Assembly: GCA_014730275.1 (NCBI GenBank)
Contig: WJIL01000135.1
Location: forward strand, 1 to 37,864
Length of the DNA: 37,864 nt
Reading direction: 5' to 3'
Source of the DNA: Candidatus Lokiarchaeota archaeon
GTDB taxonomy: Archaea; Asgardarchaeota; Thorarchaeia; Thorarchaeales; Thorarchaeaceae
The first letter of the stretch is position 1, and each line of letters begins with the position of its first letter. Below are positions 21,629-33,001 of this stretch, piece by piece. A program made the position numbers and the translations under genes. The notes beneath the pieces are model-generated. The model had not been told where the DNA came from. It was given only the letters and a program-made list of their open reading frames with translations, and made no database searches.

Positions 21629-22549
21629 ATGGCCAGAACAAGAGAGGACTTCAAGAAAGCTTTCAATAAGAGACTCAAGGCAGCAACTGAAGATGAGCTC
21701 CGTATTGTGATAAAGGAGCAATACCGAGAGGCATTCGACGTGCTTACCGATTGTGAAAACGCAGGCCTCATCCCGGGCATAATTGGGCCGCCCGGTGTGG
21801 GAAAGACACTACTTCTTAGAGCATATGCAAAAAAGAGCGGAAGGGATTTTCATTGGGTGACTGGCGATGAAGGTGTAAGGCCCTCACATCTCGTAGGTTC
21901 TTATAATCCAGCACTGGTTCTTGAGCGAGGCTTCAGTCTCGATTCATTCGATCCAGGCCCCATGTTGAAATGCATGGTTTTTGGCGGAGTATTTGGTCTC
22001 AATGAGGCAAATCGACTACCTGAGTACGTGCAGAACTCACTTCTGGAACCGCTCGAAGAGAGAATGGCCAACGTTCCCAGAATAGGTCGTATCTCGGCTG
22101 ATGAAGAATTCTTCGCAGTGCTTACAATGAATCCGGAAGAAATGGCTGGCGCACATAGGTTAAGTGAAGCGCTTCGAGATCGAATCCGTGTATGGATACG
22201 ACTTGGATATCCAAGAAAAGAAACGGAGATTGAGATTGTAAAGGTCAACTGTCCAGAGTACAAACTCTCTGATCATGTTCTAGAAACAATCTATGACCTC
22301 GTGTCGTCCACCAGGCAATCTACGGATATAGAGATACCAGCATCAATCAGAGCCGGGATATCCATTGCACGACTAGCATCTGAGATGGGACAAAGAAAGA
22401 GAAAGAAGGATGTGAATCATTCAATCCTCTCAGAAGCAGCAAACTACGTCCTTAGTGGGGCATTGCGATTTAGGCCGGGTGTTGATCCCGAACCAGCTGT
22501 GAACCGTATTATCAGATCCACCATTGGAGGGAGAGGAGCTAGCCAATAA
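21629..22549 (+). CDS. MoxR-type AAA+ ATPase
   Basis: A 306-residue AAA+ ATPase of the MoxR/CbbQ kind. Walker A is GPPGVGKT (53-60); Walker B is VFGLNEANR (121-129), with the MoxR-like N-E-A-N-R end; sensor 1 is LTMNPEE (N168); an arginine-finger region follows in SEALRDRI. Such ATPases work with a VWA-domain partner to remodel or metallate a target enzyme. Here the partner is the next gene, which starts on the last base of this stop codon. A role in Rubisco, nitric oxide reductase or methanol dehydrogenase activation cannot be assigned because none of these is nearby. Confidence 0.92.
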   Translation: MARTREDFKKAFNKRLKAATEDELRIVIKEQYREAFDVLTDCENAGLIPGIIGPPGVGKTLLLRAYAKKSGRDFHWVTGDEGVRPSHLVGSYNPALVLERGFSLDSFDPGPMLKCMVFGGVFGLNEANRLPEYVQNSLLEPLEERMANVPRIGRISADEEFFAVLTMNPEEMAGAHRLSEALRDRIRVWIRLGYPRKETEIEIVKVNCPEYKLSDHVLETIYDLVSSTRQSTDIEIPASIRAGISIARLASEMGQRKRKKDVNHSILSEAANYVLSGALRFRPGVDPEPAVNRIIRSTIGGRGASQ

Positions 22550-25050
22550 TGGGGACAAAAGCAAAAATCGATCCTATTCCCAGCATGGTAGTAGAATTTG
22601 CTCACGAGTTTGTCTCTCGAATGAGGGCCCGCAAGGATCTCAAGCAAAAACCAAGCATAAGGCAGACAGAAGCCATTCCTCAATTCTTGAGTGCACGCTA
22701 CTTCAAACAAGGAAGGCTTAGCCTCGACGATTTGGTTGAAGCCGCAGTATATACGACATTCCCGGCTGATCAGAAAGTGGCAAGGGATGTAGCTGAAGAT
22801 ATCGTACTTGGAAGAGAAGATGAGGAAAAGACGATACTCGAAACGCAGCAAAAGAAAGAAGCGCAGAAGAAAGCAAAAAAGGCAGTCACTGATTCACTCA
22901 ATCAAGTCATCAATTCCATATTGCGAGAACAGGAATTATCTGAAAAAATTGAAACCGACAAAATAGCGGATGGTTACAACTATCTGCGAAATCTGAAAAG
23001 GGCAGACAAAGATGACTTGTTGAATTCAGCTACTGACTATCTCACAGAAGGCGACATAGTCTTACGAGGCATTTCTAATGATGAAAGGCTGAAACAGGAA
23101 GCTTCCCAAGAGCTACAAGAACGGATTGGTGGTCTCAGCTCTAGGGATATCGAGAATTCCAAGACACTAGATAGCCTTGATCAGGTTTGTTCATCACATA
23201 ACAGAGCTGAATCTCTAGCAGCCAAAGCGCTACGAGGAGATTCAGAAGTCGAGAAGAAATTCAATGACCTGGCCCAGCGAGATTCTGCTACTGCAGCTCG
23301 GGCTCTATCACATATGAAGGATATTGGGTCTCCAAAAAAAGCTAAACGAAATGCTATGCAAAAGCAGTTGGAGGGTTCAATTCAAAATCTAGAGGAAATG
23401 GCTTCTTACGCTTCTCATCTTAATGAAGTACCCAAGAATGCTGATTCTCATGTGCAGTCAGCTCCCAAGGAATTTCCCATTGACGAAGCAATGAGAATGG
23501 CAGACCGAATCAAGAAACATACTGGAAAATCACTTCATGATCAACTGATGAAGGAATATGATTCTCAATTCAACGAAGGGGCGTCAAAAAATGTAGATCA
23601 TCATCAACTTGCTGACAACGCTACCCCACAACAGCATTGGAAGAATCTGGTTGAGAAAGTAACAGATAGAACTATGGACCGAGCACAGTCACGTTCTGCA
23701 CCGGCTGAATATTTGCTCAAGAAACTGGCACAACACAGCAAGCTAAGCAATGACTTACCGGGACAATGCAGAAGCACTTGGAATGAACAGATGCAACGGC
23801 TTAGTGATGAGGCAATCAAGCAATCGCAATCAAAAGCACATATGCGAAAGAATGTCAGGAGAGCAAGAAGAATGGGCACCAGTCCCTCAGAAGAGGCCAT
23901 TCGTCAGAGAGGACAAGAACTGGGAATGAGTGAAAGCGAGATTCTCGAGTTGGTGAACCCTTCTTTCCAAGTTGCCAAGAAGCTGATTAATCAAGGTGTT
24001 AAGGACTTCGATCGATTGCATGGACTGATATCCTCCGCTGGACTCAGTCAATCTCAGCTCGAAGAACTAGCCGACATGGCAAACAAAAAGGGAAATGCTT
24101 CAGCGCTCGGAGCGGTTGGGCATGTTGATTTGCACGCCGCGTTGGGAATGGGCAGAGGGAGGAGCAGAGGAGAACCAGATCCACAAAGAGCAGACATGGC
24201 ACTGAGGGGTTTACTTGGGGGGCCAGCCACAAATATTGTGACAATTTGGTATACCTACCGAGAAAACCTTCCACCCGAATTCAAGAGAAGACTAAAGCAA
24301 ATTGCGAAACGTCTGCTGATAGATCTTGGTAAAAGCTTCGCTCGGGCAGTAATGGGCTCATCGATGTTGGGCGGTATCCAACCATCCACAACAGTGCGTC
24401 CCTTCCGCATCGGTGATGATATTGATCTCATAGATCTTGAGGAGACCTTGTCACATCTTCTTTCCGAAGGACGTACGGATTTCCGCACGTTGCGGCCAGA
24501 TGATTTCCTAATCACTGAAACATATCATGGCCACAGGGCGTTCTACTGGGCTCTTGACAAAAGCGGTTCAATGCATCATCCGAAGAAACTCGGTATGCTA
24601 TCGATTTCAGTCATGGCAGGACTTTATGGTATCCAAAAAGACGACTTCGGCGTAGTTCTCTTTGACCATGGAACGCATATCGTCAAGGATATAGCAGATC
24701 CAACAAAATCAGTAGAGAAAGTAGCATCGGATCTTCTTGATCTTAGAGCCAGTGGGGGTACTGGGGGTGCGAGTTCGATTAGGCTTGCCCTTCAGAATCT
24801 CGAGAAAACAAGAGCAAGAGAAAAGATATTCATCTTTTGTACAGATGTTTATCTGAGCGACCAGTCAGAATGTGTTGATTTGATGGCCAAAATCAAAAAA
24901 CAGGGAATTGACACAATTCTTCTTGTACCAGCAGCTGAATATGACCGAAAATCAGCTGATGAACTGGCCAAGTCATCTCACGGAGTTGTTCTTGATATTG
25001 ATTCCGTTGATGAATTGCCTCAAAGGCTGTTGCGGCTGACTAACTACTGA
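22549..25050 (+). CDS. Large VWA-domain protein, partner of the MoxR ATPase
   Basis: An 833-residue protein whose start overlaps the MoxR stop (TAATG). Residues 1-640 are highly charged and largely helical, with predicted coiled-coil segments (KKEAQKKAKKAVTDSLNQV; HMRKNVRRARRMGTSPSEEA) and no recognised domain. The VWA domain begins near 660: the MIDAS motif D670-K-S-G-S keeps the DxSxS metal site, followed by SGGTGGASS and FCTDVYLSD, giving a complete metal-dependent adhesion site. The long N-terminus exceeds that of typical CbbO/CoxE partners. Probably acts as the target-recognition arm of the ATPase. Cytoplasmic; no signal peptide. Confidence 0.85.
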   Translation: MGTKAKIDPIPSMVVEFAHEFVSRMRARKDLKQKPSIRQTEAIPQFLSARYFKQGRLSLDDLVEAAVYTTFPADQKVARDVAEDIVLGREDEEKTILETQQKKEAQKKAKKAVTDSLNQVINSILREQELSEKIETDKIADGYNYLRNLKRADKDDLLNSATDYLTEGDIVLRGISNDERLKQEASQELQERIGGLSSRDIENSKTLDSLDQVCSSHNRAESLAAKALRGDSEVEKKFNDLAQRDSATAARALSHMKDIGSPKKAKRNAMQKQLEGSIQNLEEMASYASHLNEVPKNADSHVQSAPKEFPIDEAMRMADRIKKHTGKSLHDQLMKEYDSQFNEGASKNVDHHQLADNATPQQHWKNLVEKVTDRTMDRAQSRSAPAEYLLKKLAQHSKLSNDLPGQCRSTWNEQMQRLSDEAIKQSQSKAHMRKNVRRARRMGTSPSEEAIRQRGQELGMSESEILELVNPSFQVAKKLINQGVKDFDRLHGLISSAGLSQSQLEELADMANKKGNASALGAVGHVDLHAALGMGRGRSRGEPDPQRADMALRGLLGGPATNIVTIWYTYRENLPPEFKRRLKQIAKRLLIDLGKSFARAVMGSSMLGGIQPSTTVRPFRIGDDIDLIDLEETLSHLLSEGRTDFRTLRPDDFLITETYHGHRAFYWALDKSGSMHHPKKLGMLSISVMAGLYGIQKDDFGVVLFDHGTHIVKDIADPTKSVEKVASDLLDLRASGGTGGASSIRLALQNLEKTRAREKIFIFCTDVYLSDQSECVDLMAKIKKQGIDTILLVPAAEYDRKSADELAKSSHGVVLDIDSVDELPQRLLRLTNY

Positions 25051-25844
25051 TCACGAGGTACAAAGCCCCTTTGCGAGCCAAGAGTTTTCTCACGCACATC
25101 TGATATCCACAGCCTATAGGCGCAGGGGTACTCTTCATCACGTAATTCTAGGAATTCTCTTGAGAAGATTTGCCTCATCATTCGCATGAATCGATAGAAA
25201 GGTGTTTCTTGTTCAACAATTTCCGCAATACAGCTGATTTCATAACTCAACCATGGTGGTGAGCCGTTCGTAGGCCAGGAGAAATGTAGAGTTACACGAG
25301 GGTTTTTCCTGATATTCTGATAGCTTCGATCACCATACATCTCAGCTATACCGAAACGAAATCTGTCAATCAGGGTCTCTTCCAAGTAGAGATTCCGATA
25401 AAGCGATATCCGATCATCCATGGTGTCTTCAAAAGGCTGGCCAAACATTTCCAGCAGATTACCTTCTAGGTCATCAATCCGTTCTGCTATCACATCGTCC
25501 TTGAGTGTAAGCCGTACAATCTTAGTAGCGGTATTTACCGGAAAGGGTTTGTCTCTGTCAAATGTGACCAGAGTTGGCTTCATGATATTTGAGCGCCATA
25601 TGCCTCGGAAGATATCGACATCATCATCAAGCATATCAACTGCATTCAGCATACCTGAGTATAGAGGATTTGGCATCGCATTAAGGGGAAAGCCCAAGGT
25701 CACAGCTTCGTCAGTTACGACGATTCGACGTGATTCACGGTCTACAAGGTGTACTGCTGAATGCCTTTCATCTGCCAAACCTAGCTTTCTCCTATTGCTG
25801 CACATAGAGTCGTGTTTGTTTAAATCTCTGTCCCTCAAATTCAT
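25044..25844 (-). CDS. Unknown protein, weak resemblance to flavin split-barrel proteins
   Basis: A 266-residue soluble protein, not confidently recognised. The C-terminal half contains YQNIRKNPRVTLHF and a following strand-rich segment (WLSYEISCIAEIVEQE) reminiscent of the FMN-binding split barrel of pyridoxamine-oxidase-like proteins; this is a weak inference. The middle has TATKIVRLTLKDDVIAERID and an acidic helical part. The frame stays open to 26051, but that portion overlaps the opposite gelsolin-like gene and is Ser-rich shadow sequence. ATG 25844 is chosen because a TATA-like box at 25873-25883 predicts a start just before it. The stop overlaps the end of the VWA gene by seven bases. 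Confidence 0.6.
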   Translation of the reverse strand: MNLRDRDLNKHDSMCSNRRKLGLADERHSAVHLVDRESRRIVVTDEAVTLGFPLNAMPNPLYSGMLNAVDMLDDDVDIFRGIWRSNIMKPTLVTFDRDKPFPVNTATKIVRLTLKDDVIAERIDDLEGNLLEMFGQPFEDTMDDRISLYRNLYLEETLIDRFRFGIAEMYGDRSYQNIRKNPRVTLHFSWPTNGSPPWLSYEISCIAEIVEQETPFYRFMRMMRQIFSREFLELRDEEYPCAYRLWISDVREKTLGSQRGFVPRDQ

Positions 25845-25872
25845 GCGGAAGCAAGATAAGACCGGACTAGCA

Positions 25873-25883
25873 AATAAAATAAG
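25873..25883 (-). promoter_or_regulatory. TATA-like box for the divergent unknown gene
   Basis: The minus strand reads TTATTTTATTT about 30 bases before ATG 25844, with no ribosome site between, which fits a short or absent leader. Confidence 0.35.
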
Positions 25884-25935
25884 GTACCAAAGCGAAGTAC
25901 ACACACTACAAAACCTGAAGGTTTGAGATTTGACA

Positions 25936-26208
25936 ATGCTAGAGGCTCTTGAAATAACGGGGGATGCGGATTTGGTAGAGATAGAGCCGGATAAAGCAGA
26001 AACTAGAACAGATCGGGTGCTCGTCTTCATAGACCATGAGAATGAAACCATTTACTTGTGGAGGGGTAGCAAGGCAAGTGTCTTCAAGAAGCTCAACGGT
26101 ACAAGAGTGATTGCCAGATTAAGCCACAAGTACCCGAATTACAGAATCAAGCCTATTGCAGAAGGACGGGAGCCGGCTGCATTCAAGAGTCTACTCAAGA
26201 GGCGCTAG
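25936..26208 (+). CDS. Single gelsolin-like domain protein
   Basis: A 90-residue protein that reads as one gelsolin fold. Residues 27-50 (RVLVFIDHENETIYLWRGSK onward) match the gelsolin core strand pattern in which a short acidic turn is followed by hydrophobic-Y/V-W-x-G and a basic helix start. KASVFKKLNGTRVIARL forms the expected helix, and IKPIAEGREPAAFKSLL matches the usual ending, an E-G-x-E-P-x-x-F signature before a helix. Single-domain gelsolins are reported from Asgard archaea as actin regulators. There is no signal peptide, so it is cytoplasmic. No actin gene is in the window. ATG 25936 is preferred to TTG 25930. Confidence 0.75.
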   Translation: MLEALEITGDADLVEIEPDKAETRTDRVLVFIDHENETIYLWRGSKASVFKKLNGTRVIARLSHKYPNYRIKPIAEGREPAAFKSLLKRR

Positions 26209-26271: not shown

Positions 26272-26565
26272 ATGGCCATTGATTTGCGGGCTTATCTGCG
26301 TCTTATCCGAAATATCACGAGGGGTCTCATCACGAGAACCAAGATCATAGCCGCTCTTAATCATGATGAATGGAAGACCGTATCAGAAATTGCCAGTGAA
26401 GTCGAAGTCGGGCCAAGTACAGTAAGATATCATCTCAAAAATATGCAGAAAGAAGAGATTGTTAAGAAAGAAGAAGACGGTCCTGGCTGGAGACTTGAAG
26501 AAGGACAGAAGAAAATAACCGATTGGGTTCCATCTTCCGAGAAGGACAAAGCGGAATCGGAATGA
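26272..26565 (+). CDS. Winged-helix transcriptional regulator (ArsR-like)
   Basis: A 97-residue DNA-binding protein. After a helical N-terminus, TKIIAALNHDEWKTVSEIAS and EVGPSTVRYHLKNMQKEEIV form the helix-turn-helix, followed by a short wing (KKEEDGPGWRLEEG) and an acidic tail. No metal-binding cysteines of the classical ArsR sensor are present. It follows the gelsolin-like gene by 63 bases in the same direction; whether it controls that gene or itself is not known. Confidence 0.85.
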   Translation: MAIDLRAYLRLIRNITRGLITRTKIIAALNHDEWKTVSEIASEVEVGPSTVRYHLKNMQKEEIVKKEEDGPGWRLEEGQKKITDWVPSSEKDKAESE

Positions 26566-29272: not shown

Positions 29273-32200
29273 TCAGTTACCCATCTTGTTTTTTCTAAGC
29301 ATCACAACGATTATCACAACCACTATAGCAGCTGCCGAGGCACCGACCACTAGTAATAAACTATCATCGAGTTCCACAGGTGGGGGTGTGGTTGTTGTAG
29401 ATGCTGTGGTTGTGGTGGTAGTAGAGGTTTCCGTTGTTGTTCCAGTGGTAGTGGTTGTTGTTGTTGTGGTGCTTTCCATCAGTACCGTCACCATGACAGT
29501 ATCCTTGCCGGTATTTCCAACTTCGTCAGCAAACACCACCGTATAGTTGAAGGTACCAAGAGAAAGCTGATCTAGGTCGACGGTCACAACCTCATCCGAG
29601 TCAGTCCAATCACCAGTATCGTACAGGCTCCCGTTCTTGTAGATGGTATATGAGTACGGATGCACATCGCTTGCGCTCCAAGCTATTTCATGCCCGCTCG
29701 TGCCCTCGTAGAAACTGATATCCTCCACAGCTTCAACAGCCGGGTCGGTACCATCCACCAGAAATGTGAAATTGGCGTAAGCGGAGTTTGATGCTTGATC
29801 TTTGGCATAGACATGCAACGTATGCCACCCATCACCCGCAATCATTGGAATCGAGGGGAACCACGTAGCAGTTTCGTTTGAAGAGGCATCGTCCCAGTGA
29901 TAGAATACATCTTCAGGATTGTTTTCGGTTAGGCTAAGATTCACCAAAACTCCTGGCGCTTGTAGTGTACCGTTTGCTGGTGCTGTTAAGGAAATAGTCG
30001 GTGCGTCATTATCCAACTCGAAAATGTAATGCTTGTGTCGCCAGTATCCCCATGTATCATTAGCATAGACGTGTAGATGTTTGTTTCCAACGACACCATT
30101 GATTGTTGTTTGATAGGGTTCTGACCAAGTATGATTGCTGACACCCCAACTATAGAAGACAGTATCAGTATCGTCATCCGTAACGTCTACGTCCAGTAGC
30201 GTTCCATCTTGGACCACGCTGTTATTGGCTGGTGTAGTGAGGACTATCGCCGGAGGATCATCGGTTGTGAATACGTAAAGCGCTGAATCCTCTTTTCCGC
30301 CGGTGTCATTGACGTAGACTCTTAGAGTATGACTCTCTTCTCCGGTCGGTTGTATTGCAGTATACGGATCTGTGAGGGTTGTATTATCCGCACCATCCCA
30401 ACTTGCTAGGACAGTGTGTACCATATCAAAGTCATCATCCACTGAAAGCTGAATCTCCCATCCACTTGGAACAACCGTTTCATTAGCAATTTCATAAAGC
30501 GATATCGTCGGTGGATTGTCTGGCGCAAAAACAAAGAGGGCTGATGCATCGTTGCCCCCAGTATCATTGGTATATACATTCAAGATATGATTACTATCCC
30601 CAGTTGGAACTGTCGCCGTATATGGATAGGTAAGAGTCGCATTAGCCCCACCATTCCAGCTTGCCAACACCGTGTCTATCAGTCCGAAATTGTCTTCCAC
30701 TGAAAGTGGGATATCCCCTGCACTTGGTTGAACTGACTCATTGGTTATTCCCGATAACGTAATCGTCGGGCTTTCGGTGTCTATGCCGAAACAAGTCAGG
30801 AATCCATCTTCATTTCCACCATAGCTTTCTTGCAAAGCATGTGTAGTCGGGAAATCGGATGATTCAGTGATTCCCACGACAGTGATATTGCCATTCCACC
30901 ATCCTAGTACGTCTCTACCTTCATCTAAACCGCTTCCGCCCAGATAAGTTGAGAAAGTAAGCGATGTGAGGTCTGTCGTGAGGTTTACAACGAATGCATC
31001 GAGGGGCCCTGCAAACGAGTCGTCGAAAGCCGAAACAGTCGGAAAATCGTTCGACATCGTCCATCCAGTAGCAAAGACACCTTTTCCGCCTATCTCATCT
31101 GTCACGTCGATACCGTAAATACGATCATCTTCAGAACCACCAATGTAGGTGCCTGCCAAAAGGCTAGTACCATCACCTGAGAGCTTCACTAGGAATCCAT
31201 CTCGATACGAATAACCTGTGTCATATGATCCACCCGTAACAGGAAAGTCGTCCGAATACGTCTGACCACCAACATATACAAAGTAATCATCGGAATCGAA
31301 ATCGTATTCCAAAGCGATATCATGTGCGACATCGGTGTCTCCTCCACCTACATAGGTGCTCCAATTCAAAGAGTCTCCAGTTGGGTTAAGCTTTGTAACA
31401 AAGACATCCTCTTGCCACCCATCAAGGTCCCTATCGTATGCTCCAACGGTTGTTGGAAAATCGTTTGATTCTGTACAACCTGTAACGTAAGCATGTCCGG
31501 TTTCGATAACCTCGATGCCAAAACCGGAGAAAGATGGAGAATTGAGCTCGTGGCCATCCCCACCCAGATAAGTAGAGAAATTCAGTCCGCCAGTACTATT
31601 GAACCGAGCAACGAAAGCATCGTTACTTCCACCCTGGTAACTGGTCTGATAGGCGCCAGCAGTCACTGGAAAGTCATTAGAAACCGTATAGCCAACAATG
31701 TAAGGACTATAGTAGCCAACCGTCTCTCCACTCCACGCAATTGAGATGTCGAATGCTTCATCATTTTCTGAGCCACCCAAATAACTCCCGTATAGTAGCC
31801 CATTTCCAGTGGAATTCAATTTGGCGACAAATGCATCACCTGCACTTGCGCGACTGCTCTGGTAGGCGTCATCGGTCGTTGGAAAATTCGTGGATGCTGT
31901 CTCACCCGTTATATAGACGTCTGTTATATCGTCAACTGCAATACCACGTCCCCATTCGCCGTAATTCCCACCTACGAATGTACTATAGACCAAGCCCCCT
32001 GTAGTGTTTATCTTGCAAACAACAGCATCAGTCTGAGCGGGATCTTCATCATATCCATTTTTGACTGGGAAACCACTGGCACCCGTTCCGATAAGATAGA
32101 CATACTGCCCACCTTCGCCATAAGCAATGTCAACGATTCGGTCTAGGCTGCTGCCACCCAGGTAGGTGCTGATTGGGATATTCCAAGGATCAATGATGAG

Positions 32201-33001
32201 AGTTCGAGTTCTATCATAAGCGGAAACATCGAAGCCATACGTCCCACGGTCAATCCTCCTGAACTGCGAAGGAACCTCTTCACCGTTTTTCAAAAACGAA
32301 ACCAAACCAGTATCTTCCAAAATCGACTTTCCGCCTGTTTCCGAGAAGATGGTCACGGTGCTCCTGTCAACGTGGATTGAAGCTTCATCTCCAACTGAGA
32401 GATGGATATCACTGGGATCTCCACCGGGTCTGACAATGAACTCGTATTTCAGTCCTTTTTCAGTCATGAAATAGCGTAAGTCGATATTCTCGTACAGATC
32501 AGGATACCAGATTTCCTGATACGCAGGAACATTCGTGAACCTCTCGTCGCCAATGAAGTAGTTGCTTTCGTGTGTGCTCTTCTTCTTGCCAATCGGTTGA
32601 CAAGCATCGCCACCCTCGAAGAACAACTCCATCGTTTTGTATGTTCCTTCATCGCGCACAGCAAATGTGACTTTGGATACTGAGAACGCAACTGACAGGC
32701 GACTGGAGGTATGATAGAACGAAATATCCGGACTTCCTCCCTGGCCGAGGTTCTTCACAAATCCTGCGAAGGGAATGGACTCGGGAATCTGTCTACGAGA
32801 ACGCTCCACGATATTACGCAAAGGCGACTGGTCTGTCCTGTCATACCTTTCGCTAATCTTTGGACGCGAACTATCAATTTTCTGCTGCTCAGGATACGTA
32901 ATCCCAGAGCCACTAGCTCCAATGGTTACAAACGGAGCCAGCAATAGCAGAAAGGTTCCAAATAGTAAAACTCGTGATGGCCTATGCAAAGGTGATGGCA
33001 T
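29273..33001 (-). CDS. Large surface protein: SBBP beta-propeller, Ig-like repeats, Thr stalk, membrane anchor
   Basis: A 1242-residue exported protein. Residues about 11-31 form a signal peptide. Residues about 55-275 match the N-terminal domain that commonly precedes SBBP propellers (FAGFVKNLGQ...; YPDLYENIDLRYFMTEKGLK). Residues about 275-740 contain seven SBBP blades, each opening with a YLGG-type tetrad (STYLGGSS, STFVGGNY, GSYLGGSE, STYLGGDG, STYVGGGD, GTYIGGSE, STYLGGSG), consistent with one seven-bladed propeller. About four Ig-like repeats and a fifth variant domain follow to about 1170. A threonine-rich stalk (about 1177-1205) and a single helix (about 1212-1233) with an RKNK tail anchor it. 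Many N-glycosylation sequons. Probably an adhesin or S-layer-associated protein. Confidence 0.9.
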   Translation of the reverse strand: MPSPLHRPSRVLLFGTFLLLLAPFVTIGASGSGITYPEQQKIDSSRPKISERYDRTDQSPLRNIVERSRRQIPESIPFAGFVKNLGQGGSPDISFYHTSSRLSVAFSVSKVTFAVRDEGTYKTMELFFEGGDACQPIGKKKSTHESNYFIGDERFTNVPAYQEIWYPDLYENIDLRYFMTEKGLKYEFIVRPGGDPSDIHLSVGDEASIHVDRSTVTIFSETGGKSILEDTGLVSFLKNGEEVPSQFRRIDRGTYGFDVSAYDRTRTLIIDPWNIPISTYLGGSSLDRIVDIAYGEGGQYVYLIGTGASGFPVKNGYDEDPAQTDAVVCKINTTGGLVYSTFVGGNYGEWGRGIAVDDITDVYITGETASTNFPTTDDAYQSSRASAGDAFVAKLNSTGNGLLYGSYLGGSENDEAFDISIAWSGETVGYYSPYIVGYTVSNDFPVTAGAYQTSYQGGSNDAFVARFNSTGGLNFSTYLGGDGHELNSPSFSGFGIEVIETGHAYVTGCTESNDFPTTVGAYDRDLDGWQEDVFVTKLNPTGDSLNWSTYVGGGDTDVAHDIALEYDFDSDDYFVYVGGQTYSDDFPVTGGSYDTGYSYRDGFLVKLSGDGTSLLAGTYIGGSEDDRIYGIDVTDEIGGKGVFATGWTMSNDFPTVSAFDDSFAGPLDAFVVNLTTDLTSLTFSTYLGGSGLDEGRDVLGWWNGNITVVGITESSDFPTTHALQESYGGNEDGFLTCFGIDTESPTITLSGITNESVQPSAGDIPLSVEDNFGLIDTVLASWNGGANATLTYPYTATVPTGDSNHILNVYTNDTGGNDASALFVFAPDNPPTISLYEIANETVVPSGWEIQLSVDDDFDMVHTVLASWDGADNTTLTDPYTAIQPTGEESHTLRVYVNDTGGKEDSALYVFTTDDPPAIVLTTPANNSVVQDGTLLDVDVTDDDTDTVFYSWGVSNHTWSEPYQTTINGVVGNKHLHVYANDTWGYWRHKHYIFELDNDAPTISLTAPANGTLQAPGVLVNLSLTENNPEDVFYHWDDASSNETATWFPSIPMIAGDGWHTLHVYAKDQASNSAYANFTFLVDGTDPAVEAVEDISFYEGTSGHEIAWSASDVHPYSYTIYKNGSLYDTGDWTDSDEVVTVDLDQLSLGTFNYTVVFADEVGNTGKDTVMVTVLMESTTTTTTTTTGTTTETSTTTTTTASTTTTPPPVELDDSLLLVVGASAAAIVVVIIVVMLRKNKMGN
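29379..29477 (-). repeat. Low-complexity threonine-stalk coding tract
   Basis: A run of ACA/ACC/ACT codons on the minus strand (GTTGTTG-type on the plus strand) encodes the threonine-rich stalk. It is prone to slippage and length change. Confidence 0.75.

Follow-up and report, generated by a model that had tools for sequence, protein, structure and literature searches.

Does the short open reading frame at positions 25936-26208 (+) of the window, the whole stretch of 37,864 nucleotides analysed here, encode a single-domain gelsolin that could act on the actin of its archaeal cell, and under what control? The analysis covered its sequence relatives, its predicted structure, the selection acting on it, its occurrence across genomes and its calcium-ligand positions, at which conserved acids were found to be lacking. 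The protein is the known Thorarchaeota ProGel, already described and crystallised, since PDB entry 7c2f is its closest match both by sequence and by predicted fold and its orthologues in named genomes belong to Candidatus Thorarchaeota. The find is thus correct but ordinary, as a close relative already has a solved actin-bound structure.

Identity of the encoded protein

The open reading frame translates into 90 residues (MLEALEITGD...EGREPAAFKSLLKRR), with IYLWRG at residues 39-44 and EGREPAAF at residues 76-83; the reading frame, the coordinates and both motifs claimed by a sequence-only reading of this DNA agree exactly with the sequence. A phmmer search of the PDB returned 7c2f_B as the best match (E 4e-31 over 87 residues, 1-87), followed by gelsolin, villin and Asgard 2DGel chains, the next Asgard match standing at E 8e-7. 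With a profile of 30 orthologues, the E-value of 7c2f_B improved to 2e-47. The Pfam Gelsolin family (PF00626) scored 17.7 bits against the window protein, under its curated cut-off of 21, and matched 29 of the 30 orthologues at E ≤ 0.1 (top E 5.7e-7). A match to the IFT80 beta-propeller (E 0.09, one of 30 orthologues) was dismissed as chance.

The AlphaFold2 model built from the orthologue alignment (pLDDT 82, pTM 0.76) shows the strands in gelsolin order, with residues 49-65 forming a long helix. Foldseek ranked 7c2f_B first in the PDB (TM 0.90, rmsd 1.3 Å, 62% identity), an entry titled "Thorarchaeota ProGel/rabbit actin complex", and the ranks shown below it are gelsolin-family domains. The gelsolin fold proposed from the letters alone was therefore upheld by structure prediction and comparison. 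The window protein and the Thorarchaeota ProGel of 7c2f also share their lineage and a single domain of ~90 aa, but in the window's genus the long helix differs by N54 and I59. The domain fold is the same in the Asgard 2DGels (7c2g, 7c2h, 7whf, 7whg; TM ~0.75), which, unlike the window protein, have two domains, keep their calcium ligands and are only 23-27% identical to it. Eukaryotic gelsolin, villin and adseverin share the fold as well (gelsolin G2 and G3 and severin D2 at TM 0.77-0.79), yet eukaryotic gelsolins contain three to six domains and are calcium-controlled.

The gene is genuine and under strong purifying selection, far beyond chance, as indicated by the PDB and orthologue matches and by its substitutions. 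It differs from its nearest relative, from the same genus, at 29 nucleotides, of which 25 are third codon positions, and the two proteins differ by only two residues (dN 0.014, dS 0.66, dN/dS ~0.02). Translation probably begins at the ATG at 25936, because the in-frame TTG before it would lengthen the protein by just two residues and nearly all orthologues use the same ATG. A listed minus-strand open reading frame of 335 aa (25044-26051), PNPOx-like, overlaps ProGel in antisense; it was rejected as an explanation in view of the selection on the ProGel frame and because its conservation mostly ends before ProGel. In relatives, its conserved part spans ~240 aa and ends in most of them ~115-195 nt upstream of ProGel, and the 5′ part of the longer frame is probably non-coding.

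The same genome encodes other gelsolins, namely two 2DGels (C108:12495-13010 and C16:90321-90728) and a 1DGelX-type protein of 315 aa on contig C148 (L063:6655-7602), whose gelsolin domain is joined to a C-terminal domain by a linker rich in proline and lysine. All are clearly more distant from the window protein than the ProGel of 7c2f, and the set fits the ProGel/2DGel/1DGelX scheme described previously (PMC9433394). Asgard 1DGelX resembles ProGel in its single gelsolin domain and related sequence but has an additional C-terminal region and is here a separate gene. The presence of this related N-terminal domain might suggest that the window protein is a fragment broken off a larger gelsolin, either a 2DGel or a 1DGelX. 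Such an origin is barely conceivable and is decisively disfavoured, because the single-domain length of 89-94 aa is kept in 30 genomes at a conserved locus; moreover, the gene has its own start and stop, and the 1DGelX and both 2DGels exist separately in the same genome. The protein is thus a free-standing domain of ~90 aa, as the sequence-only reading had supposed.

The window's family comprises 47 genomes, its own included; 37 of them have a ProGel orthologue (50-98% identity), and eight of the ten lacking one at ≥50% identity are less than 90% complete. More remote gelsolin-domain matches occur throughout the phylum. In a scan of named genomes, relatives were found only in Candidatus Thorarchaeota, apart from one weak match of 33 residues in Hongsoonwoonella that we treated as chance. 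An IMG/VR scan with the orthologue alignment found no viral relatives. Together with the 7c2f match, the named relatives bear out the proposed Asgard origin and narrow it to Thorarchaeota, in which ProGel is a standard, strongly selected gene.

Many genomes of the family also encode a second single-domain gelsolin of ~90 aa (L074-L081), ~30% identical to ProGel and 47% identical to the 1DGelX domain of the window's genome. No free-standing copy of it was found in the window's genus.

Putative actin-binding helix and calcium-ligand positions

Both Thorarchaeota ProGel and 2DGel are functional, ProGel having been named the Asgard cofilin, and actin binding, severing or sequestering was demonstrated for the Thorarchaeota ProGel orthologue (PMC9433394). 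The window protein belongs to the gelsolin/cofilin superfamily, with a single domain. By analogy with the characterised protein, from which binding, severing and sequestering are carried over, it would very probably sever filaments and sequester monomers of the cell's own actin as cofilin does, with no need for calcium, so that the likeness to cofilin would be one of mode of action.

In gelsolin G1 and in cofilin, the equivalent of the long helix occupies the cleft between actin subdomains 1 and 3, and the ProGel helix (residues 49-65, codons at 26080-26130, +) would enter the same cleft. Among the 30 orthologues, seven of its 17 positions are invariant and four more are at least 90% conserved. 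The window protein retains all the invariant residues (K52, L53, T56, R57, A60, L62 and S63), but N54 and I59 are peculiar to its genus, the relatives having a hydrophobic residue at the former and A or T at the latter. These two substitutions could weaken actin binding. Their position in the helix, together with an identity of only ~62% to the characterised ProGel, leaves some room for the alternative that the protein of this genus keeps the gelsolin fold but no longer severs filaments, its action being limited to sequestering actin or binding it weakly. We regard such a loss as unlikely given the strong purifying selection and the retained invariant residues, and favor a ProGel that still severs.

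Calcium-ligand residues, which the sequence-only reading had singled out for checking, proved not to be conserved when their positions were read from the alignment of 30 ProGels against the 2DGel domains of the same genome. In place of the type I aspartate, every ProGel has a serine (S63). At that of the type II helix glutamate (residue 51), 18 ProGels have K, ten have E and two have T or N, while the other type II acid position varies and no ProGel has both acids together, although a difference in loop length makes the first type II position harder to equate with confidence. The 2DGel on C108 retains the ligand acids, and the more divergent one on C16 retains some of them only. One-domain forms reportedly lack calcium sites (Akil et al. 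2020).

Since ProGels have not conserved the ligand acids that the C108 2DGel keeps, the action of ProGel is most likely calcium-independent, and its activity would need no calcium. The loss is not uniform, as ten of the 30 orthologues keep E51, and the window protein has D26; both observations would suit a single-domain gelsolin regulated by calcium. This regulation is nevertheless highly improbable, as the two type II acids never occur together and the type I acid is replaced by the invariant S63.

Gene neighbourhood and the actin locus

The gelsolin had been called isolated, with no actin gene nearby. It is indeed a single domain, and the only actin gene of the genome lies on another contig (C16:81369-82472), 8 kb from a two-domain gelsolin. 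However, the word is misleading, because ProGel belongs to a neighbourhood conserved in most of the 28 family genomes with enough flanking sequence. In the window, this block comprises a MoxR/GvpN-like AAA ATPase (21629-22549, +, 306 aa; AAA_5 6e-16), a VWA-domain protein (22549-25050, +, 833 aa; VWA_2 7e-6), a PNPOx-like protein divergent from ProGel (25044-25790, −, with an approximate start; PNPOx_N 8e-5, under the curated cut-off), ProGel itself and an ArsR-type winged-helix regulator (26272-26565, +, 97 aa; HTH_5 5e-11).

Upstream of ProGel, the VWA gene is found in 25 of the 28 genomes and the MoxR gene in 22; in 24, the PNPOx-like gene is the divergent neighbour, at most 400 nt away, and a VIT1-family gene lies in 21 of the neighbourhoods. 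The ArsR-type gene follows ProGel by 28-91 nt on the same strand in 23, a spacing that makes an operon with co-transcription plausible. The genes beyond this regulator, from UPF0047 onwards, are common to the same genus only. A functional tie between ProGel and the block is only a suggestion, because the entire upstream region is equally conserved. Given the ArsR-type regulator, the PNPOx-like protein and the MoxR-VWA pair in the block, a stress or redox signal might control ProGel actin turnover through transcription, apart from the actin/2DGel locus, which we consider a long shot. The neighbourhood offers a small, testable lead on regulation; a scan for bacterial promoters and terminators gave nothing useful.

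Genome G021 consists of a single contig, whose coordinates place actin ~1.9 Mb from ProGel, a distance that would be smaller if the genome is circular. A 2DGel was found ~1.5-20 kb from actin in 12 family genomes (the window's own, G000, at C16:73000-92900, and G003, G004, G007, G010, G011, G012, G013, G015, G016, G017 and G021), with ProGel elsewhere. C108 also carries a sub-threshold profilin match. Two relatives have two tandem copies of the PNPOx-like gene (L048, L068), and positions 29273-33001 (−) of the window encode a 1242-aa protein with DUF7948 and SBBP beta-propeller matches.

An intron-like insertion in actin genes of relatives

In four related genomes of the 47 in the family (G016:C3:105694-106827+, G012:C20:27517-28650-, G018:C90:841-1974+ and G019:C103:997-2130-; L094, L095, L096 and L097), the actin gene contains, near its 3′ end, an insertion of 30 nt that introduces an in-frame stop. 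Each of these genomes is from a different genus, and in at least three of the genera other members lack the insertion. By its sequence, the insertion looks like a candidate archaeal splicing-endonuclease intron in Asgard actin mRNA, of which a literature search found no report, and we consider it worth more than the ProGel find itself. It is predicted to fold into a bulge-helix-bulge-like structure with a 3-nt bulge (AAT) and a 4-bp helix (CCAG/CTGG), its right-hand loop exceeding the canonical 3 nt. In the G018 gene, the helix carries the compensatory pair TCAA/TTGA. Exact excision of the 30 nt (after T, GCTGCAGC...CTGGTG) gives back SLKTFQKMWVS in all four actin genes.
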